Shown piece by piece: positions 4,867 to 16,206 of a stretch of DNA of 64,000 nt. The first letter of the stretch is position 1; the number at the start of each line of letters is the position of its first letter. The position numbers and the translations under genes were made by a program. Under the pieces are notes generated by a model that was not told where the DNA came from, did not search any database, and was given only the letters and a program-made list of their open reading frames with translations. The DNA lies in contig JACQZQ010000088.1 in assembly GCA_016213785.1 (NCBI GenBank), positions 1 through 64,000 of the forward strand. The letters are read 5' to 3'. The stretch is from Acidobacteriota bacterium. Lineage in GTDB: Bacteria > Acidobacteriota > Blastocatellia > Chloracidobacteriales > JADJPF01.

Positions 4867-7800
4867 TTATATGGCAGGAACTAACATTTCTGTTATAGAA
4901 ATAGGGTTTTTAATTTGGTGACTATACATCCAATTATCAGATTCTGTAATTAAAAGATTAGTTTCTACACTTCGACCTTTTAATTTTTCTAATATTTCTG
5001 CGCGACGACGACGAGTAGCAGCTAAATAAAGAGACATATTTGCTTTTTCAAACTTTTTTTCTGCTAAAGTCAAGTAATTAATAGAGTTTTGACTATCACC
5101 TTCTCTTGAAGCAACACCAGCAAGAATCAGTTCTGCCCAAGCATCTCCATAAAGAGTTTTTTGCTGTAAAATACGTTTAGCATTTTTCTTTGCAATTTTT
5201 AGAAATGTTTTTGGGTTAGAAACTTCTTTTGAAGCTATTAATGCAACTCTTGATTGTAGGTGTAATGCCTCTATCAATATATTAGAGTTATTTAATAACA
5301 TAGATTGTTTTAATGTCGCCCATTTTTCTTGTATTTTTTCCCAGGTATCTAGCCCTTTTCCTAAATAAAGCCCTATTTCTCCTTGAGCTATAATCCTCCA
5401 GTACTGTTGTGTATAAAAACCTTTTTTAGCCCATAAGTCATTTGTTTCATCTAGCTCTTGATAGGCTCTTTCAGGCTCATCCATTACTAAATATTGCATA
5501 TAAGAAATAAAAGATTTTAAGTTTGTTAATACAAATAAATTATTTCTATCTTCAGCATTTTTAAGTAAAGCTGGTAGCCTAGACATTATTTCATTAATAC
5601 CGCCTAAATATAGTAATGCCCTTAGTGAAAAAACTATACTATTATCAATACCACGTAGGGCAAATGCATAGTTTTCTCCTCGACACTCTTTAAGTGTTAT
5701 TTTTTCAGCAATATTAAATAGTCTCCAAGCTTCTTTCCAATCACCGTGTAAATAAGCATTAGAACCTTTAATAAAAGTAACCATAGCTAAAAGTTCAGGT
5801 TTATTAACTTCCTTAGCTAATTCTAGTGCTTTACTACTCATTTTTGCAGCATAGGCTTTAGTCCATTTTCCAAGAATAGAAAAGAAAAGACTCTGAAAAG
5901 TCAAAGCTCTAACCAATCTATAAGGCTCACCTGCCTCTAGAGCTAGTAACATATGCTTAGTCTGAAATTCTAGTGCTTTAAGTGCATTAATTGAGCTAAG
6001 AGAATCTACAACAGTCCAACAAATATCTAAAGGTATTAAAGTTTCTGGTGAAATATTGGCTTCATCACGTTTTTGATAATTTGTCCCTCTTAGCCAAACT
6101 TTTATACAACCCACTATTATTGATAAAATAGTTTGAAATTGATTTGTATGAAGTTGCATTCCTATTTTTTTAAGCACTTGGTTAAGTAAATCTAGCCCTT
6201 CATCAACATAACCAGAGTTTAAGAATTGTTCAGCAGCCTTGTGTTGTAACTTAAGAATCCCTTGTTTAGTTGAGTTACCAGTAGCCTCAAGATAGGCTCT
6301 TGCTGCTTCAGCGCCTTGTCCTGAGTTAGAAAGAGCATTGCCCAACTTAATTTTAATACTTGATGTAGTCATATCTTGAGTTGTTTTTAATTCTAAAGAC
6401 TGGCGGTACAATTTAGCAGCACGTTCAAAGGCTAGGGTTTGATCTGCTTGTTCTGCGGCAGTAATTGTATATTCAGAGGCTTTATCACGTTCTCCGGCTA
6501 ATTGAAAATGTTTTGCTAAACGTTCTGGATCAACATTTTCAAATGTCTCTAATGAAAGAGCTAAAGCATAATGATAGTTTTTTAATGAGTCTAAAGATAA
6601 ATTTGCAAGAATTGATTCACGTATTCTATCGTGATAAGTATCAAGCTCTTCATAAGTGGTTGTTCCTGTTAGTCTTAGTAAGTGATTTGTTCGTAAAATT
6701 GGTAAGATTTGCTCATCAGAGGCTATTTTAGCAGCCCTTTTAGCAACACTTCGTGCTAGAGGTTGGCCTGATACAGCTATTATTTCTAATAAGTTACGTG
6801 CTTCTTCTGATAGCAGTGCAACACGAGCACTAATGACTTTATCTATAGTCATTTCACTAAAATTAGTCTCTTCTAGGTCTTTTTTAGTAAGAGCATATTG
6901 GGCTAATTCACCTATAAAAAACGGGCTTCCTCCAGATTCTTTAATAATCATCTCACTTTGCTTTACTGTAGCCTGTTTGCCAAGCAAAGTTGCAACTAGT
7001 TTTCCAGAATCTTCTTTAGATAATTCTTCAACACTAATTTCCTGTACTTTTGCCCTTTTAATAATGCTTTTTTGAGAAGAAAAAAATGCTTTTAAGAATA
7101 TACTTGAGCTAGATTCTTCACTACGATAAGACCCTATTAAAAGCAGTCTTGGAGCTTCAGGAGTACGAATAATCTCTAGTATTAATCCTACACTATCAAT
7201 ATCACCCCATTGTAGGTCATCTATTATAATTGCTACATCTTTTTTATTAGTTAACCTTATTAGCAGTTCTCTTAGTGCGTTAAAAGCTTTACGACGAAGG
7301 TCTTGAGCATCTAAACTATCAAGACTGCGCCTTAGGTTTGCTATTGTATCTACTTGTTTTAGGACAGGAAAAAGGCGAGCTAGAGCTAGTATATCTAAAG
7401 GCAAAAGAGCTTCTACTTCCAGAGTAGGCAAGTTTTTTAGATATCTACTTAATAAATCAATAATACTATCAATAGCTTTATAAGGAACAGATTCTTGTTC
7501 ATAACATCGGCCTGAAAATATTAATAAATCAGGCTCAGAACGTTCTAATGTTTCTAAAAAATACTTAAGAACTGTACTTTTGCCCATCCCTGAATGGCCT
7601 TTAATATAAATTGTTGTTCCTATACCTTGTTTAGTTAACAGCCAGGCTTGATTAAGTTTTTCTAATTCTTTTTCCCTTCCTATAAAAGGGGTTGATGATT
7701 TTTTATTTACAAAACTCTCTGAAAGGCTTTCTACATGGCCTAAAAGCTCTAAAACTTGGCTTGCGGTTGGACGTAGTCTAGGATTTCGCTTAAGTAGCTT

Positions 7801-8985
7801 TTGACAAAGTATATTTAAGTCTTCTGGAACGTCTGAAACAAGTTCTGAAGGTGGTAGCGGTTCAATTTGTTGTTTACTTAATAAAATTTCTGTTGGGCTA
7901 CCTTGAAAAGGCAATACTCCAGTTAGTGATAAATAAAGCATAATACCAACGCTATACCAGTCTGAAGCAGATGTAATTGCTTGTCCTGCAATATGTTCAG
8001 GCGACATATAAGTAGGCGTACCCATTATATTATCACTAGTAATTTGATTAAACCCTTGAGCAGTTAGCTCACTTACAAGACCAAAATCCAAAATTACCAC
8101 TCGCCCTTCCTTAGTTACTAATACATTAGAAGGTTTCAGATCTCTATGTAATTTATTAGCGCTATGTAAAGCATTAAGCCCTTCAGCTAGTTGTTTTAGT
8201 GCAAAACGAAGTTTTGATAAATCTGCCTTACAGTTAGGCATATTAGATTTTGGTGGCTTAGGTAAATTAATAGGCATATTCTTAGCCTTTTCTGTAAGTG
8301 CATCAACTTTAGCTGAACCAGTAATAGGAAATTTTCTTAGGGAAGATGTGATGGCATTTGAAGAAGATTCTTTAACTGTTGCAACTACTGGTTTTACATA
8401 CTCAAGAAAATTTACACCATAAATCATTTCCATAGTAAAAAACCATTGATCTTCTTCTAAAAAAAGTTCATACATTGTTGCAAGATTAGGATGGGTTATA
8501 TCTGCAATTGAGCGAAATTCTTTCTTAAATCTATAAATATCTTCTGCATCAGCATCATGCAAGGTTTTTAAGGCAACAATAGAATTTTGCTCACGGTCAT
8601 AAACTTGATAAACAACCCCAAAACCACCCTGACCTAAACGTTTTTGAATTAAAAACCGTGAAGTCCCTACAAATTTATCTTTTTTGGGATTAAGAGGCTT
8701 ATCATTAACAGGCTTTGAACTTATAGAAGGTCTATTTAAGTTATTTTTTTGGTTTTGAAAACCTTTTTGAGAGTTATTTTGAAAACTATTTTGAGAGCTA
8801 TTTTGAATATCTATTTCCATTAAAAAATTACTGGCTTCTTTATGAGACATAAACAAAGACTCCACTTCTTTTTTAATCTCTTCATCTTTACAATTTTCAT
8901 CAATATAGTTTTTTGCTTCTAAATACTCTAAGTCCATTATTTGCTGAAATAATAATTTAACTTGATTCCATTGTTCTGCTGTCAT
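4867..8985 (-). CDS. Giant Ser/Thr kinase - AAA ATPase - TPR regulator (PknK-like)
   Basis: 1372 residues. Residues 1-56 (WNQVKLLFQQIMDLEYLE..., CKDEEIKKEVESLF) form the N-terminal region common on acidobacterial kinases. A Gln/Asn-rich stretch follows (61-83). Kinase domain about 110-415: glycine loop LGQGGFGVVYQ, Lys140, HRDLKPSN from 280, DFG 300-302, TPTYMSPE, with an insertion of about 55 residues (200-255) before the helix preceding HRD. An AAA/STAND ATPase follows (FIGREKE, Walker A GHSGMGKST 463-471, Walker B VAIIIDD 584-590), then about 500 residues of TPR-like helices. The order matches PknK/MalT-like regulators, but no terminal DNA-binding or cyclase domain is visible, so output is presumably phosphorylation. 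It is transcribed alone. Substrates are unknown. Confidence 0.9.
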   Translation of the reverse strand: MTAEQWNQVKLLFQQIMDLEYLEAKNYIDENCKDEEIKKEVESLFMSHKEASNFLMEIDIQNSSQNSFQNNSQKGFQNQKNNLNRPSISSKPVNDKPLNPKKDKFVGTSRFLIQKRLGQGGFGVVYQVYDREQNSIVALKTLHDADAEDIYRFKKEFRSIADITHPNLATMYELFLEEDQWFFTMEMIYGVNFLEYVKPVVATVKESSSNAITSSLRKFPITGSAKVDALTEKAKNMPINLPKPPKSNMPNCKADLSKLRFALKQLAEGLNALHSANKLHRDLKPSNVLVTKEGRVVILDFGLVSELTAQGFNQITSDNIMGTPTYMSPEHIAGQAITSASDWYSVGIMLYLSLTGVLPFQGSPTEILLSKQQIEPLPPSELVSDVPEDLNILCQKLLKRNPRLRPTASQVLELLGHVESLSESFVNKKSSTPFIGREKELEKLNQAWLLTKQGIGTTIYIKGHSGMGKSTVLKYFLETLERSEPDLLIFSGRCYEQESVPYKAIDSIIDLLSRYLKNLPTLEVEALLPLDILALARLFPVLKQVDTIANLRRSLDSLDAQDLRRKAFNALRELLIRLTNKKDVAIIIDDLQWGDIDSVGLILEIIRTPEAPRLLLIGSYRSEESSSSIFLKAFFSSQKSIIKRAKVQEISVEELSKEDSGKLVATLLGKQATVKQSEMIIKESGGSPFFIGELAQYALTKKDLEETNFSEMTIDKVISARVALLSEEARNLLEIIAVSGQPLARSVAKRAAKIASDEQILPILRTNHLLRLTGTTTYEELDTYHDRIRESILANLSLDSLKNYHYALALSLETFENVDPERLAKHFQLAGERDKASEYTITAAEQADQTLAFERAAKLYRQSLELKTTQDMTTSSIKIKLGNALSNSGQGAEAARAYLEATGNSTKQGILKLQHKAAEQFLNSGYVDEGLDLLNQVLKKIGMQLHTNQFQTILSIIVGCIKVWLRGTNYQKRDEANISPETLIPLDICWTVVDSLSSINALKALEFQTKHMLLALEAGEPYRLVRALTFQSLFFSILGKWTKAYAAKMSSKALELAKEVNKPELLAMVTFIKGSNAYLHGDWKEAWRLFNIAEKITLKECRGENYAFALRGIDNSIVFSLRALLYLGGINEIMSRLPALLKNAEDRNNLFVLTNLKSFISYMQYLVMDEPERAYQELDETNDLWAKKGFYTQQYWRIIAQGEIGLYLGKGLDTWEKIQEKWATLKQSMLLNNSNILIEALHLQSRVALIASKEVSNPKTFLKIAKKNAKRILQQKTLYGDAWAELILAGVASREGDSQNSINYLTLAEKKFEKANMSLYLAATRRRRAEILEKLKGRSVETNLLITESDNWMYSHQIKNPISITEMLVPAI

Positions 8986-9264: not shown

Positions 9265-10632
9265 ATGAGCAAAATTTTATTTCTTAACCACGCGCAAATA
9301 GGCCACTTAAACCCATTGCTTACAATAGCCCTACAAATGCAAGCCGATGGTCATAGTACAGAATTTTTAATACCTGGAATAGAAGGAGTTGAGCCTAAAA
9401 TAGATATCCTTAAAACAGCCTTTTTAATCCCTAAAATAGTCAAAAAAGCAGGTTTAGAAGTAGAAATTATCCCTCCTCCTCTACTGGCAGGTGTTTTAAC
9501 TGTTTTTTTACCTTTTTTCTATGGATATAAAGAGTTTATGTTTGTTGTTGAAATCTCATCTATAGGGCTTGAAAAATATACTAAATCAATAATTAAACAT
9601 ATTGAAAAAAATAAACCTGATATGATGGTAACAGATTTTGCTTTTTATCCAGCTTATATAGCCTCAGAAGTTAATAATATTCCTTGTGCTACTGTTTATC
9701 ATAGTGGTCTACCTTTTAAGGGAAAGCTAGTTCCTCCTTTTGCTAGCGGCTTACCCATAGGTGAAAACGCTTATGATTTAGGGAAAAAATTCTTCCCCTA
9801 TCAAAAATTTATATTAGATAGGCTAAATAGGCGTATTAACCGAGTTAGAAAAACATTTGGACTATCAGAAATTGCTGCTGAAATGTTTCTTAGCCCTTAT
9901 TCTAAATGGTTAAACCTAGTAACTAGCGCGGAAGCTATTGAAGCCCCGCGTTATAATCTTACAGAAAACACTTTTTTTATAGGCCCTTGTTTTGAAAATA
10001 GAAAGCAAGAGTCAAATGATTTTCCTTTTGATAAACTTTCTAAAGACAAATATAAAGTTTATGTCTCACTTGGAACTGTATTTAATAATAAACCTTGGGT
10101 ATTTGAAAAAATTATTAAAGCGCTTGGAAATAAAAATGACTACCAAGTTATTATCAGCGCAGGAGGAGCTTATTCTAAATTGTCTACTTGCACTATGCCA
10201 GAAAATGTTTTACTTTTTCCTAGAGTCCCACAAGTAGACTTACTAGCCAAAATAGACTTAGTTATTGGGCATGGAGGAAATAATACAACAAATGAAACCC
10301 TTGCAGCAGGTAAACCATTGATTATAATGCCTATAGGTGGTGAACAAGGAGATAATGGAAGTCGAGTTGAGTATTTAGGAGCAGGAATAAAAATAGATAT
10401 TCATAATTTCAATGAGAAGGATTTAGAGGCAAAAGTTAATTTTATCCGTACAACTAAAGAGTTTCAAAAACGAACAACTGAATTAAAACATCAATTAGAA
10501 AAAACTAGCGGAGCAAAAACAGCCTCAAAACTTATAGAGTGGGTAGCAGAAAAAAAACAACCTCTAATTCGCCCTAAACACCTACCTCTAACATTTACAT
10601 TAGAATATATAAAAGAACTTTATAAACTATAA
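9265..10632 (+). CDS. GT1-family (MGT-like) UDP-glycosyltransferase
   Basis: 455 residues with the GT-B fold of glycosyltransferase family 1. The N-terminal half begins ILFLNHAQIGHLNPLLTIA (the acceptor-side G-H-x-N/x-P motif) and contains MVTDFAFYPAYIASE. The C-terminal half has the donor motif VYVSLGTVF and the family signature GHGGNNTTNETLAAGKPLII with MPIGGEQGDNG. Such enzymes move a sugar from a nucleotide sugar to lipid or small-molecule acceptors. AGGA precedes the ATG at a usual distance. It ends 10 bases from hpnI on the opposite strand, so it is not in that operon. A link to hopanoid glycosylation is conceivable but unsupported. The acceptor is unknown. Confidence 0.9.
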   Translation: MSKILFLNHAQIGHLNPLLTIALQMQADGHSTEFLIPGIEGVEPKIDILKTAFLIPKIVKKAGLEVEIIPPPLLAGVLTVFLPFFYGYKEFMFVVEISSIGLEKYTKSIIKHIEKNKPDMMVTDFAFYPAYIASEVNNIPCATVYHSGLPFKGKLVPPFASGLPIGENAYDLGKKFFPYQKFILDRLNRRINRVRKTFGLSEIAAEMFLSPYSKWLNLVTSAEAIEAPRYNLTENTFFIGPCFENRKQESNDFPFDKLSKDKYKVYVSLGTVFNNKPWVFEKIIKALGNKNDYQVIISAGGAYSKLSTCTMPENVLLFPRVPQVDLLAKIDLVIGHGGNNTTNETLAAGKPLIIMPIGGEQGDNGSRVEYLGAGIKIDIHNFNEKDLEAKVNFIRTTKEFQKRTTELKHQLEKTSGAKTASKLIEWVAEKKQPLIRPKHLPLTFTLEYIKELYKL

Positions 10633-10642
10633 GAGTTTTAAC

Positions 10643-11803
10643 TTAATCGACTCTAACTAGTTTACCACCTACTTCTAGGCGAAATCTATCACCCCGCCAA
10701 TAAACTGTATTACCAAGAAAGCTAAATAACCAAACTAAAAAACTAAAAAGATCTCTTATTGGAAGCAAATAAAAATAGCGTTGTAAGCGTTTATCACCTA
10801 CCCAAACGCCTCCTATCAGCCATGCAGCTAAAAAGCGTATGGTTAGCGCAATTAAAGCGACTATCCAAGCTAAGAGGTTATGAGAAAAACAGATAATTAA
10901 AAGCAGTGATAAAGCAGTAGTAAAAGTAAATAATAAACCCATATAGCCTGAAGGACGCGAAAACTTTGTTCCTCTAGCCCAACGTATTTGATGTTTAATT
11001 AAATCTTCTAGGTGATAATTTGGTAATACAGTTTCTACAATACAATTAGAAATATAGACTTGATAGCCAGCATTTGCGGCTAAATTACCAATTAGAAAAT
11101 CATCTGAAAGATAATCAGCAATAGCAGCAAAACCACCTATTTCATTTAATACTTTTTTACGAGTTGCAATAGTTGAACCTAGGGCAAATTTTACACCCTC
11201 TAATTGTCTAGCAACTAAAACACCTAAGAGAAATTCTCCTGTAATTCCTAAGGTTTCTATTAAAGCAGCAAAATTAGTGCTACCAATTGCCCGATAAAGA
11301 CAAGTCACTACTCCAACTTTTTCATCAGCTAAAGGCTTTACAACAGATCTTAAGTAATTTTTAGGAACATAAATATCGCTATCGCTAATTACTAGAATCT
11401 CATTACTTGCAAAAGGTAGCATATTGTTCAAATTACTAACCTTAGCACTTACTCCTATAGTATTAGCGCTAATTACTAATTTTATTTGTCTTTCAGGAAA
11501 TTCCTTCTTAAGTTGTTCAACTAGTTTTATAGCTGGGTCATCAGGGTCTCTAACACCAAAAATAATTTCATAATTAGGATAGTCTTGTTTACAGCAACTT
11601 ACCCAACAATCATAAGCGCGATCATCTATACCACGAACAGGTTTTAAGATAGTAACAGCAGGGGTGTAATCTGTATTGGGAAGAAATGTTTTTTTATCAA
11701 GAAAAAAATTTGCTGCACTATAAATACACATTAAGTGATAAGCAGCCGAGGCTACAACTAACAAAACTAATGCCCAAAAAAAGACTAAGCTTAACCAATG
11801 CAT
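10643..11803 (-). CDS. hpnI: Hopanoid glycosyltransferase HpnI (GT2)
   Basis: 386 residues with an N-terminal membrane segment (about 5-28), a GT2 catalytic domain resembling ceramide glucosyltransferase (VTILKPVRGIDDRAYDCW, LVISDSDIYVP carrying the D-x-D, ADYLSDDFLIG, and the R-W pair in HQIRWARGT) and C-terminal membrane helices (about 290-360). In the established pathway HpnI adds N-acetylglucosamine from UDP-GlcNAc to bacteriohopanetetrol. hpnJ and hpnK in the same run of genes make the assignment firm. It is the last gene of the operon, three bases after the second DMT gene. Product chemistry is inferred from the family. Confidence 0.9.
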   Translation of the reverse strand: MHWLSLVFFWALVLLVVASAAYHLMCIYSAANFFLDKKTFLPNTDYTPAVTILKPVRGIDDRAYDCWVSCCKQDYPNYEIIFGVRDPDDPAIKLVEQLKKEFPERQIKLVISANTIGVSAKVSNLNNMLPFASNEILVISDSDIYVPKNYLRSVVKPLADEKVGVVTCLYRAIGSTNFAALIETLGITGEFLLGVLVARQLEGVKFALGSTIATRKKVLNEIGGFAAIADYLSDDFLIGNLAANAGYQVYISNCIVETVLPNYHLEDLIKHQIRWARGTKFSRPSGYMGLLFTFTTALSLLLIICFSHNLLAWIVALIALTIRFLAAWLIGGVWVGDKRLQRYFYLLPIRDLFSFLVWLFSFLGNTVYWRGDRFRLEVGGKLVRVD

Positions 11804-11806
11804 AAT

Positions 11807-12196
11807 TTATAGAACTAGAAAAACTACACCTAAGCAAACTAAGGCTGTTCCTATTAAACGGCCTTTATCTATTTTTTCATTTAAGTAATATTTTGCGCCA
11901 ATAGTATTAACAACATAACTAAATGCTGTTGCAGGGCTAACTAAACTAATTGGTGCCCAGGAAAGCACTGTTAATAAAGAAAAAAAGGCTATTGCCATAC
12001 AAGCAATCCCACTAATAACAGAAATATTAGTAATTACTTTTTTAGCAATTGATATTAAGGCTCTTAAATTTAATGTATCAACTTCACCAACTTGCTTCAT
12101 TCCACGACTAAGTAGAATATCGCCAAATGAGCCTCCAAATACAATAACAGCTATAAGAAGAAAAGTTTCTAAAGGTTTTACTAATTCAACTACCAT
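11807..12196 (-). CDS. Small DMT/EamA-like membrane protein B of a pair
   Basis: 129 residues with four predicted membrane helices and the half-EamA/SMR layout: GDILLSRGMKQVG after helix 1, VISGIACMAIAFFSLLTVLS, LVSPATAFSYVVNTIGAKYY and a final GRLIGTALVCLGVVFLVL. Members such as ArnE/ArnF work as heterodimers that flip lipid-linked sugars. Its ATG overlaps the stop of the preceding half-transporter (TAATG at 12194-12198), and hpnI begins three bases later, so it is embedded in the hopanoid operon. A role in moving a hopanoid or precursor across the membrane is an inference from context. Confidence 0.8.
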   Translation of the reverse strand: MVVELVKPLETFLLIAVIVFGGSFGDILLSRGMKQVGEVDTLNLRALISIAKKVITNISVISGIACMAIAFFSLLTVLSWAPISLVSPATAFSYVVNTIGAKYYLNEKIDKGRLIGTALVCLGVVFLVL

Positions 12197-12684
12197 TAGC
12201 TATTCCCTTCGCTTACTTTACTATCTAAAACATTTTTATCTGTTCTAGATTCCCCGCGAGCAACCATTAATACCCCAAAACAAATTAGTAATATTCCAAA
12301 CCATCGTCTAAGAGAGACTTCTTCCTTAAGCATTAGCATTGCAAGAATTGCAGTAAGAATATAGCTAAAGGAAGTTACAGGTAAAACATAACTAAGATCT
12401 GCACGAGAAAGAAGAGTAAGAAAGAGTATAAAGAAAGTAGTTTGTAAGCCTAGGCCAAGTAAAAAATTTAAGTTTGTAACAGTTAAAACAGGCCAAGCCC
12501 CATAAATAGCCCAATCTGGGTTAATACTTCCTATTAAACTTACTAAATAATAAGTTATCCCTGTAGCTTGACTAAGATTAAAATTATCCATAAGTAAAGC
12601 TACTTGCTTCATACCTTTAGTAAGAAAAGCATCGCCTAGTGATACAGTAAAAACGGCAATCACAATAAGCGGCAATAATTTCAT
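12196..12684 (-). CDS. Small DMT/EamA-like membrane protein A of a pair
   Basis: 162 residues with four hydrophobic helices and the same half-transporter pattern as its neighbour: SLGDAFLTKGMKQVA, FLLGLGLQTTFFILFLTLLS, VLPVTSFSYILTAILAMLML, then RRWFGILLICFGVLMVA and a charged cytoplasmic tail. The shared GMKQV motif shows the two genes are paralogous partners. It follows hpnK by 43 bases and is translationally coupled to partner B. The family exports small molecules or flips lipid-linked sugars; the substrate here is not deducible from sequence, and a hopanoid intermediate is only suggested by the operon. Confidence 0.8.
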   Translation of the reverse strand: MKLLPLIVIAVFTVSLGDAFLTKGMKQVALLMDNFNLSQATGITYYLVSLIGSINPDWAIYGAWPVLTVTNLNFLLGLGLQTTFFILFLTLLSRADLSYVLPVTSFSYILTAILAMLMLKEEVSLRRWFGILLICFGVLMVARGESRTDKNVLDSKVSEGNS

Positions 12685-12727
12685 AAATCAATAAAGTGGC
12701 TAAAAGAAATTTATCTTTAGCGTCCTT

Positions 12728-13609
12728 TCAGTTTTTTAATTTATTTATTTTATTTATTTTATCAAGGTCAAAATAGTTAATTAGTTCAAAAGAATGTTCA
12801 TTTAATTTATTACGAACTTTTTCACTAAGTAGTGCAGTTAATTCTTCATTTCCACGTAAATTTGTAGAGTTTAGCGCTAAAGCTGAAATCTCAGGATGTG
12901 AATAAATCTCGCTAAATTCTGTTTTTATTTGTGGCAAGATTCCTAGCCAAAAATCTTCTGTCATTGAACCGCTTTCTAGTAAACCATACACTCTATCTAC
13001 TGAATTAAACCCTCGATTTTCGAGTAGTTTTTTAGCATGTACTGAAAGTAAATGAAATACTAACCACCAAACTATTTTCATTGCTAAGTTAGCTCGACGC
13101 AGTTTCAAAGTATGTATAAGAGTTTCCCTAGGAAGTCTGACCCGTTTAACACCAAATTTTTCTGCTGCTTCGGCTAAAATGGCAAAAACTGTTGGATGCA
13201 TATGTAGGTGCAAGTGTCCATCAATATGGGAAAAGGCTAGCCCTGTACTAGCAAATTTCTCTACTTGTGCATAAATCTCTTTACGTAATTCTTTTTGAGC
13301 AGCAGAAGAAAAATAATATTTTACTCCAGTGGAAAATGGGTCTAGAGGAAAATTACCTTTACTATCAACTAAATTAGGGATTTCACTAGCAGGTAAAACA
13401 GCACGACCACAAATTAATACTAAATGTAGTCCAACAGCCAATTTAGGGCGAGATTTAGCTAATTCAACAGCTTCACTAAAAGCTTCTTCGCCTACCATTA
13501 AACTACAACTAGTAAGAATACCTTGATCAAAAGCTTTAATAATGGCTTGATTAACCGCAGTCGAATAACCAAAATCGTCAGCATTGACGATTAATTTCTT
13601 ACGCATCAA
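12728..13609 (-). CDS. hpnK: Hopanoid-associated carbohydrate deacetylase HpnK (YdjC family)
   Basis: 293 residues. The N-terminal LIVNADDFGYSTAVNQAI is the YdjC/HpnK signature, with the DD pair binding metal; the metal/catalytic histidines are in HIDGHLHLHMHP (about 140-150), and SHPE occurs near the end. In the characterised pathway HpnK removes the acetyl group from N-acetylglucosaminyl-bacteriohopanetetrol made by HpnI. It lies between the orphan gene at 13686 and the DMT pair. The C-terminus runs out in a Lys/Asn/Ile-rich tail (DKINKINKLKN) encoded by AT-rich near-repeats, which is unlikely to matter for catalysis. Confidence 0.92.
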   Translation of the reverse strand: MMRKKLIVNADDFGYSTAVNQAIIKAFDQGILTSCSLMVGEEAFSEAVELAKSRPKLAVGLHLVLICGRAVLPASEIPNLVDSKGNFPLDPFSTGVKYYFSSAAQKELRKEIYAQVEKFASTGLAFSHIDGHLHLHMHPTVFAILAEAAEKFGVKRVRLPRETLIHTLKLRRANLAMKIVWWLVFHLLSVHAKKLLENRGFNSVDRVYGLLESGSMTEDFWLGILPQIKTEFSEIYSHPEISALALNSTNLRGNEELTALLSEKVRNKLNEHSFELINYFDLDKINKINKLKN

Positions 13610-13624
13610 TTCCTATCTAACAGA

Positions 13625-13652
13625 ATTAAAGCAGGAAAAATCCTGCTTTAAT
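13625..13652 (-). other. Strong hairpin between the orphan gene and hpnK
   Basis: A perfect 12-base-pair inverted repeat ATTAAAGCAGGA / TCCTGCTTTAAT with an AAAA loop occupies most of the 76-base gap. On the minus strand no T run follows; on the plus strand it is followed by TAAAATTTTT, but no plus-strand gene ends here. It may be a partial terminator or RNA-processing element setting hpnK expression apart from hpnJ. Confidence 0.6.
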
Positions 13653-13685
13653 AAAATTTTTAATTTTGTAATTTTTCAAAACACA

Positions 13686-13940
13686 TTAAGCCAAATTATC
13701 CCAATCAAGTCTTACACGAACCTTTAAGAGCCTAGCAACTGAGCCTACCTTATCCTGACTCTGTGAAATAGAATCAAGAATTTGCAAAGCTTGGTCACGA
13801 TCAAACCAATTGCTAGTTATTGCTAACTTATTAGCAGCAATATTTATAGCTTCTTTAGCTACTGGCTCTTCAATATGTTTAAGAAACATCTCTGTAAGAC
13901 GTGCACGAGAATGCTTAAGGTTTAATGTAGTCAATGCCAC
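13686..13940 (-). CDS. Small conserved-looking protein of unknown function in the hpn operon
   Basis: 84 residues, soluble, mostly helical, with no recognised motif: begins MALTTLNLKHSRARLTEMFL, contains AKEAINIAANKLAI and SRARLTEMF, ends VRVRLDWDNLA. It starts 10 bases after the hpnJ stop and ends 76 bases before hpnK, so it is very probably co-transcribed with both. There is no signal peptide, membrane segment or cysteine. I do not recognise a family. Its position between a radical SAM enzyme and its pathway partner would suit an accessory or regulatory role, but no function can be read from the sequence. Confidence 0.7.
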   Translation of the reverse strand: MALTTLNLKHSRARLTEMFLKHIEEPVAKEAINIAANKLAITSNWFDRDQALQILDSISQSQDKVGSVARLLKVRVRLDWDNLA

Positions 13941-13950
13941 AATTTCTTAT

Positions 13951-15408
13951 CTACACTCCTTTGTGTAAATTACTAGCTTGTGCTTGTTGAGCTTTAACAA
14001 ACTCTTTACGTTTAGAGCGAAGTTGTAAGAATTGTTTTGCTTCTTTATAAAGTCTGCCTCGTTCATCGCTATCAAAAATTGCTTTGCTAACAATACGAGC
14101 AACGACTCTAGGACGAAAATAATATTCATCATAAAAGCGCTCAACTTGACGCATAATTTCACCACGAGAAATTCCTGGGAGTTCTGCGTGTGGGAGTTGA
14201 TGGCCTTCTTCATCAGTCATTTCATTTTCAATTAAAATGCCTTTAGCCTTCCATTCATCATACATTTCAGTTCCAGGATAAGCATGAGCAATGGAAACTT
14301 GGATTGTTTCGCAATCAATTTCTTTAGCAAATTTTATAGTTCGCTCTACAGTTTCCTTTGTTTCTCCAGGAAGCCCAAGAATAAAATCACCATGAACAGC
14401 AATTCCTAGTTTTTTGCAATTTTTCATAAAATTGCGGGCCATCTCAACTGTAGTGCCTTTTTTAATATTTTTTAAGATCTGATCATCACCTGACTCAAAC
14501 CCTACAATTAAAAGCCTACACCCAGATTCTTTCATAGCCTTAAGTGTTTCATAGTCAGTATGAACACGAGAAGTACAAGACCAGGTAAATTTTAGGGGTT
14601 TAAATTTCTCACAAATTTCTAAAACTCTAGATTTACGCCAAGCAAAGGTATCATCATCAAAAAAGATTTCCTTCATATGTGGAAAGAGTTTTAGGGCGCG
14701 TTTAACTTCTTCTACAACATTATCACTGCTACGAGTTCGCCAAGGGTGGCCGCTCATTGTTTGAGGCCATAAACAAAAAGTACATAATGCTGGACATCCT
14801 CTTTCTGTATAAAAAGCAATATAAGGATGTAGTAAAAATGGGACATTATACTTAGTAATATCTAGGTCACGAGCATAGATATCTGCGGCAAAGGGGAGTT
14901 CATCTAAATTATGTAGTGGAGCACGATCTGGGTTATGAATTATTTTATCATCTTCAATATAACTAACCCCGCCAATTTCTTTTAATGCTTTACCAGCAGC
15001 AAACTCTGTTACGCTAAAATCAAACTCTTTACGACAGATAAAATCAATTGCCGAAGATGCTCTTAGAGTTTCTTCTGGTCGAACAGTTACATGTGGGCCA
15101 ACAAATGCAATCTTTTGATCTGGTTTATTAGCCTTCATCATTTCCGCCATACGTATATCATTGTGGATTCCAGGAGTACTAGTAAAAACCACAATAAAAT
15201 CATATTCTTTTGCAATTTCTAAAGTCTCTTTCATACTAACGCCGTGTGGAGGGGCATCTAAGAGACGTGAATTAGGAATCATTCCAGCAGGATAAGCTAA
15301 CCAAACCGGATACCAAAAAGAAGCTATCTCTCTAGTAGCAGGCCAACGCGAGCTTGCCCCGCCATCAAAATTCTCAAACGAAGGCGGATTAAGTAATAAA
15401 GTCTTCAT
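13951..15408 (-). CDS. hpnJ: Hopanoid-associated radical SAM protein HpnJ
   Basis: 485 residues. The N-terminal B12-binding-like region contains the HpnJ-specific LNPPSFENFDGGASSRWPA and DAPPHGVSM. The radical SAM core has C205-x3-C209-x2-C212 (GCPALCTFCLWPQT) for the 4Fe-4S cluster, FFDDDTFAW, VGFESGDDQILKNIKKG and HGDFILGLPGET. In the established pathway HpnJ contracts the glucosamine ring of bacteriohopanetetrol-glucosamine to the cyclitol ether. It is the first gene of the operon that continues with the orphan gene, hpnK, the DMT pair and hpnI. A GGAG-type ribosome site is just upstream. Length and motifs fit the family well. Confidence 0.93.
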   Translation of the reverse strand: MKTLLLNPPSFENFDGGASSRWPATREIASFWYPVWLAYPAGMIPNSRLLDAPPHGVSMKETLEIAKEYDFIVVFTSTPGIHNDIRMAEMMKANKPDQKIAFVGPHVTVRPEETLRASSAIDFICRKEFDFSVTEFAAGKALKEIGGVSYIEDDKIIHNPDRAPLHNLDELPFAADIYARDLDITKYNVPFLLHPYIAFYTERGCPALCTFCLWPQTMSGHPWRTRSSDNVVEEVKRALKLFPHMKEIFFDDDTFAWRKSRVLEICEKFKPLKFTWSCTSRVHTDYETLKAMKESGCRLLIVGFESGDDQILKNIKKGTTVEMARNFMKNCKKLGIAVHGDFILGLPGETKETVERTIKFAKEIDCETIQVSIAHAYPGTEMYDEWKAKGILIENEMTDEEGHQLPHAELPGISRGEIMRQVERFYDEYYFRPRVVARIVSKAIFDSDERGRLYKEAKQFLQLRSKRKEFVKAQQAQASNLHKGV

Positions 15409-15546: not shown

Positions 15547-16206
15547 ATGTTTTTTGTAAAACAAGTTGTTATCTTTTTGTTGGCTTTCGCAGTTATTTTA
15601 GGCGCTAGCTTAGGAAAAGGACAAGCAAGTTCCGCGTCTTCTCCACAAGAACTCTTACAAACTATTAATCAACGTTTTTCTACATTAAAAGACTATCAGT
15701 GCCAAGTAGTTAGCACTACGTATAAAGATGGCAAAACCAAACAAGACGGACATAAATATTTCTTTAAAAAGCCTCATTTAATACGTCTAGAGGTTAATAT
15801 TGGTAAGGATAAAGGCGCTGTAGCTGTTTATAATAAAGCTGGTAAGGTTCGCGCTCATGCTGGTGGGCTACTTAGTATTTTTACAATCACTATGGAACCT
15901 AATGATAAGCGTTTACAAGATGGTGATGGTGGAACATTTGTTGAGAGCCATTTAGGTGGAACAATAAAAGATATTGAAAAGGCCATTGCCAATGGAAAAG
16001 CTACAATAAGCGCTCCTCAAGGGGATCAAAAGGTCTATCAGCTTCAAATTGAGCGCTTAAATCGAAAAGATATAATTTTTATAGATAGCCAATTATTTTT
16101 ACCTATTGTTTGGGACACTTATAAAGAAGGAAAATTAGTGTCTAAAACAGAATGGAAAAATTTACAAATAGATATAGGTGTAGAGGAAAAGCTCTTTTCC
16201 TTATAA
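15547..16206 (+). CDS. Exported LolA/DUF1571-like outer-membrane lipoprotein-sorting-fold protein
   Basis: 219 residues with a signal peptide (hydrophobic 5-25, cleavage near GQA-SS). The mature part starts SPQELLQTINQRFSTLKDYQ, then CQVVSTTYKDGK, FFKKPHLIRLEV and VYNKAGKVRAHAGG. This pattern of an initial helix, strands built around 'KKPHLIRLEV' and an 'LPIVWDTYKEGK' strand is that of LolA-like half-barrels and DUF1571 proteins that carry lipids or lipoproteins in the periplasm. It diverges from hpnJ across 138 bases. The ligand is unknown. Assignment rests on fold-level resemblance, not on strict motifs. Confidence 0.6.
   Translation: MFFVKQVVIFLLAFAVILGASLGKGQASSASSPQELLQTINQRFSTLKDYQCQVVSTTYKDGKTKQDGHKYFFKKPHLIRLEVNIGKDKGAVAVYNKAGKVRAHAGGLLSIFTITMEPNDKRLQDGDGGTFVESHLGGTIKDIEKAIANGKATISAPQGDQKVYQLQIERLNRKDIIFIDSQLFLPIVWDTYKEGKLVSKTEWKNLQIDIGVEEKLFSL

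Follow-up and report, generated by a model that had tools for sequence, protein, structure and literature searches.

Polar hopanoids are among the major lipids of bacterial membranes and serve as geological biomarkers. The enzymes HpnI, HpnK and HpnJ act in turn to yield bacteriohopanetetrol (BHT)-N-acetylglucosamine, BHT-glucosamine and the cyclitol ether (PMC12583986), which agrees with the sequence of steps that the original prediction for the locus described here had assumed. Hopanoid transport to the outer membrane is attributed to HpnN in the same source (PMC12583986, citing Doughty 2011). The role of another protein, HpnL, is reported as not established (PMC12583986). Genes are thus assigned for polar hopanoid synthesis and for outer-membrane delivery, and we found none assigned for the crossing of the inner membrane: titles and abstracts on hopanoids and flippases name no such gene, searches for hopanoids together with EamA, the DMT family or a leaflet step returned nothing relevant, and the accessible portion of a 2017 mapping of hopanoid genes in Acidobacteria (PMC5462960) does not mention the half-DMT pair that is the subject of this work. 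For a different amino-sugar lipid, undecaprenyl-phosphate aminoarabinose, flipping is carried out by ArnE/ArnF (PMC9574504). Lipid SMRs often carry Asn at the site in the first transmembrane helix (TM1) and may work without proton coupling (PMC9574504).

The locus lies in a stretch of 64,000 nucleotides of an acidobacterial genome (assembly GCA_016213785.1, contig JACQZQ010000088.1), hereafter the window. Between the genes of the three head-group enzymes it encodes two half-size DMT proteins, a and b (Table 1). From sequence and gene context we infer transport, cargo and direction, and consider it likely that a and b form a heterodimeric flippase for aminoglycosyl and cyclitol hopanoids. The pair is the probable carrier because it travels with the head-group enzymes across phyla and because one of its halves has been fused to HpnI twice.

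Table 1. Genes of the hopanoid head-group locus, with positions in the window
Feature	Description	Position	Strand	Family model or remark
hpnJ	B12-binding radical SAM enzyme, last step to the cyclitol ether	13951..15408	minus	TIGR03471
small ORF	84 aa, GTG start, orphan	13686..13940	minus	probably outside the system
hpnK	YdjC-type deacetylase	12728..13609	minus	TIGR03473, PF04794
half-DMT a	162 aa, first subunit of the proposed flippase	12196..12684	minus	PF00892
half-DMT b	129 aa, second subunit of the proposed flippase	11807..12196	minus	PF00892
hpnI	membrane GT2 adding GlcNAc to bacteriohopanetetrol	10643..11803	minus	TIGR03472

The order hpnJ, small gene, hpnK, half-DMT pair, hpnI is confirmed, with all genes on one strand and neighbours at most 76 bases apart. 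The successive spacings are 10, 76, 43, -1 and 3 bases, and the stop of half-DMT a overlaps the start of half-DMT b in the string TAATG. The list of open reading frames starts hpnK with TTG at 13609; the ATG at 13606 is more likely. A scan for sigma-70 promoters gave matches at chance level. All three enzymes exceed their NCBIfam cut-offs: HpnJ scores 759.9 bits (cut-off 577.6), HpnK, which also matches PF04794, 299.9 bits (232.6), and HpnI 361.1 bits (310). The CxxxCxxC motif of HpnJ (Cys205, Cys209 and Cys212) is invariant across 10 homologues. Above cut-off elsewhere in the genome are squalene-hopene cyclase (881 bits) and HpnH (541 bits), so the organism probably has the means to make the substrate of HpnI. 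No homologue of the small ORF turned up in 57 related genomes, of which one belongs to the same genus, and it has no relative in other hpnJ loci. It is the one gene in doubt here: its candidacy as a pathway gene was rejected, and it is set aside as an orphan.

Both halves match Pfam EamA (PF00892, cut-off 28.2 bits), a with 40.9 and b with 33.1 bits. Neither has an SMR Pfam match at E values up to 0.1, both fall far below the cut-offs of the NCBIfam SMR models, and a sequence search of the PDB returned weak DMT/NIPA matches only. The structural model of half b (pLDDT 93) is a single helical repeat of four transmembrane helices, for which the best solved folds are EmrE (2.2 A over 102 residues) and Gdx-Clo (2.6 A over 101), each with a Z of 11.8, as against at most 8.8 for unrelated chains. 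The two halves also differ in charge. Their Arg/Lys bias is +1 for a and -7 for b in the window, and a exceeds b in 106/106 pairs by a mean difference of 8, with signs strictly opposite in just 57 of the 106. On this basis b is predicted to be strongly N-out/C-out and a to be roughly neutral, a difference that would fit the asymmetry of antiparallel heterodimers. A column in TM1 of half b, Asp26 in the window, holds Asp or Glu in 108/109 sequences, where half a has Asp or Asn and single halves have F or Q in 17/44. Judged by its distance to a Met-Lys pair, this acid would stand at the position of Glu14 in EmrE, but the stretches matched in the structural alignment point to an offset of one helical turn.

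That the two half-DMT genes are paralogues, as originally noted, is borne out: the window's halves are 33% identical, and a tree of 79 halves places all second halves in one clade (SH-aLRT 99), with the first halves grouping on the opposite side together with most single halves. The a-b gene order is constant. The tree indicates that a and b are the products of one old duplication. Evolutionary distances of a, b and HpnJ are correlated (r 0.63-0.73).

Co-occurrence of the pair with hpnIJK beyond this genome, the absence of which had been set beforehand as a refutation of the original prediction, was found in at least three phyla and is strong. HpnJ is above cut-off in 59/396 Acidobacteriota genomes, and at 38 of the 45 loci read from this phylum hpnJ has the pair within 6 kb, a count from neighbourhood HMMs that were partly trained on the same loci. 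Elsewhere in this phylum the pair sits about 8 kb from hpnJ on the same contig (L052) or, on a separate contig, accompanies hpnK or hpnK plus hpnI (L071, L063); two hpnJ loci are cut by contig ends (L064, L070), and at two more HpnL adjoins hpnJ in place of the pair (L067, L068). Sixty-six further loci from public contigs, mostly acidobacterial, include 58 with the pair. With phylum names provisional where they are taken from metagenome-bin titles, which can be wrong, a half-DMT is present in 24 of 27 loci of the Nitrospirota (the phylum of G399, by locus title), single in 22, and the 32 loci of the Desulfobacterota (the phylum of G397, titled Deltaproteobacteria) hold a pair in 4 and a single half in 10. 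No half-DMT stands beside hpnJ at the other 18 of these 32 loci, at both cyanobacterial loci (2/2) or in the Pseudomonadota genome G396, and HpnL beside hpnJ is likewise missing at nearly all of these loci. Many lineages have one half only; single halves may act as homodimers with another mechanism. Two kinds of full-length candidate were rejected. ORFs of 291, 322 and 292 aa beside hpnJ/K/I in Cyanobacteria, Omnitrophota and Nitrospirota bins, considered as full-length DMTs, have no Pfam match, and ORFs of 365-376 aa at two Nitrospirota loci (L136, L138), considered as EamA proteins of fused halves, turn out to be a single half-DMT extended in frame, with overlap onto the end of hpnI.

The association also holds at the level of whole genomes. 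A half-DMT profile has three matches in the 6.4-Mb genome of the window, and because two of these are the pair itself, its position beside the hpn genes is not a matter of chance. The same genome carries a paralogous half-DMT whose operon also encodes ArnC-like and PseC/ArnB-like enzymes. With a separate alignment of 21 sequences, the tandem pair was found in 14/14 hpnJ-positive Acidobacteriota genomes and in 0/10 hpnJ-negative genomes of the window's class, genomes which are related and thus do not amount to 24 independent trials. The contrast recurs within families, in f3 (G259 and G339 vs G009) and in f7 (G291 vs G235). The last of these genomes, G235, retains a single half behind an hpnI that is above cut-off (L251), and no HpnJ was found in it; the link of the pair is therefore to the head-group pathway and not to hpnJ alone. 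The pair does not follow hpnJ where that gene has been relocated: it remains beside hpnK in L249 and beside both hpnK and hpnI in L250.

In three loci half b is joined to HpnI. L112 and L124 encode half b followed by HpnI in one uninterrupted ORF, with half a just upstream (mean pLDDT 92 for the L124 model), and L250, from the acidobacterium G291, has a similar fusion with a longer linker; all three proteins pass the HpnI cut-off from residue 139-163 onward. As the b portion of L250 branches apart from those of L112 and L124, two separate fusion events are suggested. The predicted N-out/C-out topology of b would suit fusion to HpnI, for which UDP-sugar chemistry points to a single N-terminal helix ahead of a cytoplasmic catalytic domain. 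Such fusions, and the constant adjacency of the genes, would look alike if the pair transported nothing and instead acted in the membrane as a scaffold, or as a regulatory subunit, for HpnI (and for HpnK and HpnJ), gathering the enzymes and the hopanoid acceptor. We regard this as unlikely, given the conserved acid in TM1, the transporter fold closest to EmrE and Gdx, the Pseudomonadota that have hpnI/J/K without any pair at the locus, and the L249 pair, which sits with hpnK only.

The Pseudomonadota, whose hpnI/J/K loci lack the half-DMT pair, offer a possible stand-in. HpnJ is above cut-off in 18/398 of their genomes, and HpnL is so in 17 of these 18 as against 11 of the 380 without hpnJ; nine hpnJ-positive genomes have two or three HpnL copies above cut-off, and HpnL lies within 6 kb of hpnJ in 10/19 Pseudomonadota loci. 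HpnL and a half-DMT occur together near hpnJ in none of 193 deduplicated hpnJ loci, and the best HpnL match in the window's genome scores 41.1 bits, far from the TIGR03476 cut-off of 195.65. This complementary pattern, which is partly one of phylum against phylum, suggests that HpnL and the pair do the same job. HpnL matches LPG_synthase_TM (PF03706), and MprF, a member of that family, flips a lipid. We give an even chance to the wider proposal that sugar-headed hopanoids have a dedicated inner-membrane flippase of their own, which comes in two unrelated, mutually replacing forms, the half-DMT heterodimer in Acidobacteriota and part of the Nitrospirota and Desulfobacterota, and HpnL in Pseudomonadota. 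If true, this would also assign a function to HpnL.

The lipid-flipping relative of HpnL bears, too, on the suggestion that the pair, as an SMR-type exchanger, carries not a lipid but some small soluble or cationic compound associated with the pathway, such as an amine or a by-product, out of or into the cell. Its fold and TM1 acid do recall the cation-moving EmrE and Gdx, but the known pathway yields no soluble cation that needs export and half-DMTs beside lipid glycosyltransferases, as in this genome's Arn-like operon, point to a lipid cargo, so that we judge this explanation quite improbable. It is highly improbable that the cargo is some other lipid, such as a polyprenyl-linked sugar, and that the pair shares no more than co-regulation with the hopanoid genes: ArnE/ArnF, distant relatives of the halves, do flip undecaprenyl-linked aminoarabinose (PMC9574504), but the presence of the pair tracks hpnJ (14/14 vs 0/10), it stays with single hpn genes after the cluster has split, and its fusion partner is the hopanoid glycosyltransferase itself.

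We therefore return to a hopanoid flippase, and the original prediction that the pair may flip the glycosylated hopanoid is supported by co-occurrence, the tracking of hpnJ, the HpnI fusion, the fold and the charge asymmetry. The enzyme families suggest that hopanoid heads are built on the cytoplasmic side, given the UDP-sugar substrate of HpnI and the membership of HpnJ among the iron-sulfur radical SAM enzymes; if so, the polar head would first have to be brought to the periplasmic leaflet, and HpnN-type export to the outer membrane would follow. Half-DMT a and b would form an antiparallel heterodimer that takes BHT-N-acetylglucosamine, BHT-glucosamine and BHT cyclitol ether across the inner membrane, from its cytoplasmic leaflet to its periplasmic one. 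The groove of the dimer would let the polar head through and leave the hopane skeleton in the bilayer, in the manner suggested for ArnE/ArnF and undecaprenyl-phosphate aminoarabinose; the TM1 acid of half b might link flipping to protons or serve to bind the free amine of the head. Gene neighbourhood cannot name the cargo, and some hopanoids may flip unaided. The pair is nevertheless a conserved, compact and sometimes enzyme-fused candidate for the inner-membrane crossing step and, if this is true, half-DMT/SMR lipid flippases would reach beyond prenyl-phosphate sugars to triterpenoid lipids.

Among known systems, the hopanoid transporter HpnN, of the RND type, would resemble the pair in moving hopanoids, but it serves outer-membrane delivery (PMC12583986, citing Doughty 2011), after the inner-membrane leaflet step proposed here. 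HpnL (TIGR03476) is likewise a membrane protein encoded beside hpnI/J/K, in Pseudomonadota and in the Acidobacteriota lineages that have no pair, but it is a single chain of an unrelated family (PF03706). With EmrE and Gdx-Clo the pair shares the fold of half b and, with paired SMRs, the occurrence of two genes together and a charge asymmetry (PMC9574504), although the signs are strictly opposite in just 57 of its 106 instances; it differs from EmrE and Gdx-Clo in its low identity (16-17%), in having no SMR Pfam match and in standing in no drug or guanidinium context. The closest parallel is to ArnE/ArnF, where two half-size, four-helix subunits are also encoded with a lipid GT2 and a deacylase, so that ArnC-ArnD-ArnE/F would closely match HpnI-HpnK-a/b, and where the cargo, as would be that of the pair, is an amino-sugar-headed lipid made on the cytoplasmic leaflet. 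Unlike ArnE/ArnF, half b retains the TM1 acid where lipid SMRs often have Asn (PMC9574504), it is fused to a glycosyltransferase in some lineages, and its hopanoid cargo would have neither a phosphate nor a prenyl chain. The label ArnE/ArnF-like, given to the pair at the outset, thus holds as an analogy and fails as family membership: against NCBIfam equivalog cut-offs of 92 (ArnE) and 99 bits (ArnF), the halves reach at most 23.8 and 20.8. The best explanation would be that the pair works like ArnE/ArnF without belonging to the ArnE/ArnF family.

Nine Pseudomonadota genomes (G730, G728, G549, G573, G434, G557, G677, G751 and G530) encode two to three copies over the cut-off of HpnL, the membrane protein that takes the place of the half-DMT pair beside hpnI/J/K in this phylum, and in several of them one copy adjoins these genes. 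By comparison, the 11 Pseudomonadota genomes with HpnL and without HpnJ hold a single HpnL copy each. Two HpnJ exceed the cut-off in the Pseudomonadota genome G396 (loci L175 and L186), where neither HpnL nor the pair was found and the gene 3' of hpnK is weakly AurF-like. Cyanobacterial hpnJ/K/I loci possess a second HpnK, and the cluster ORFs of L090, L104 and L136, from bins of Cyanobacteria, Omnitrophota and Nitrospirota, measure 291-322 aa.

Relatives of the LolA-like gene, whose product is possibly a periplasmic lipid carrier, lie upstream of hpnJ in six loci from the same taxonomic order (L048, L049, L051, L056, L071 and L073). In the window, the two genes are divergently oriented. The T-rich tail of the operon-internal hairpin lies on the plus strand. 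At the other hpnJ loci compared, the UDPGT/macrolide-type glycosyltransferase has no close relative. The 1372-aa protein looks, from a by-eye reading, like a serine/threonine kinase fused with an ATPase-type region.

Features in the window, in other hpnJ loci and in Arn-like operons (G, genome, G000 being the window's own; C, contig; L, locus)
Feature	Location	Strand	Remarks
LolA-like protein gene	window 15547-16206	+	19.2 bits to LolA3_fam, below cut-off
Hairpin, 12 pairs	window 13625-13652		between orphan ORF and hpnK
Glycosyltransferase	window 9265-10632	+	convergent with hpnI
1372-aa protein	window 4867-8985	-	
ORF in hpnJ/K/I cluster	L090:12410-13285		zero matches in Pfam search
ORF in hpnJ/K/I cluster	L104:13182-14150		zero matches in Pfam search
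ORF in hpnJ/K/I cluster	L136:11594-12472		zero matches in Pfam search
Third half-DMT, paralogous	G000:C130:88573-88953 (L252:8086-8451)		
Third half-DMT, paralogous	G267:C8 (L254:8135-8497)		

In both G000 and G267, the third half-DMT shares its operon with genes for an ArnC-like glycosyltransferase and a PseC/ArnB-like aminotransferase. The window's own genome also holds an Arn-like aminosugar-lipid system with a third half-DMT.
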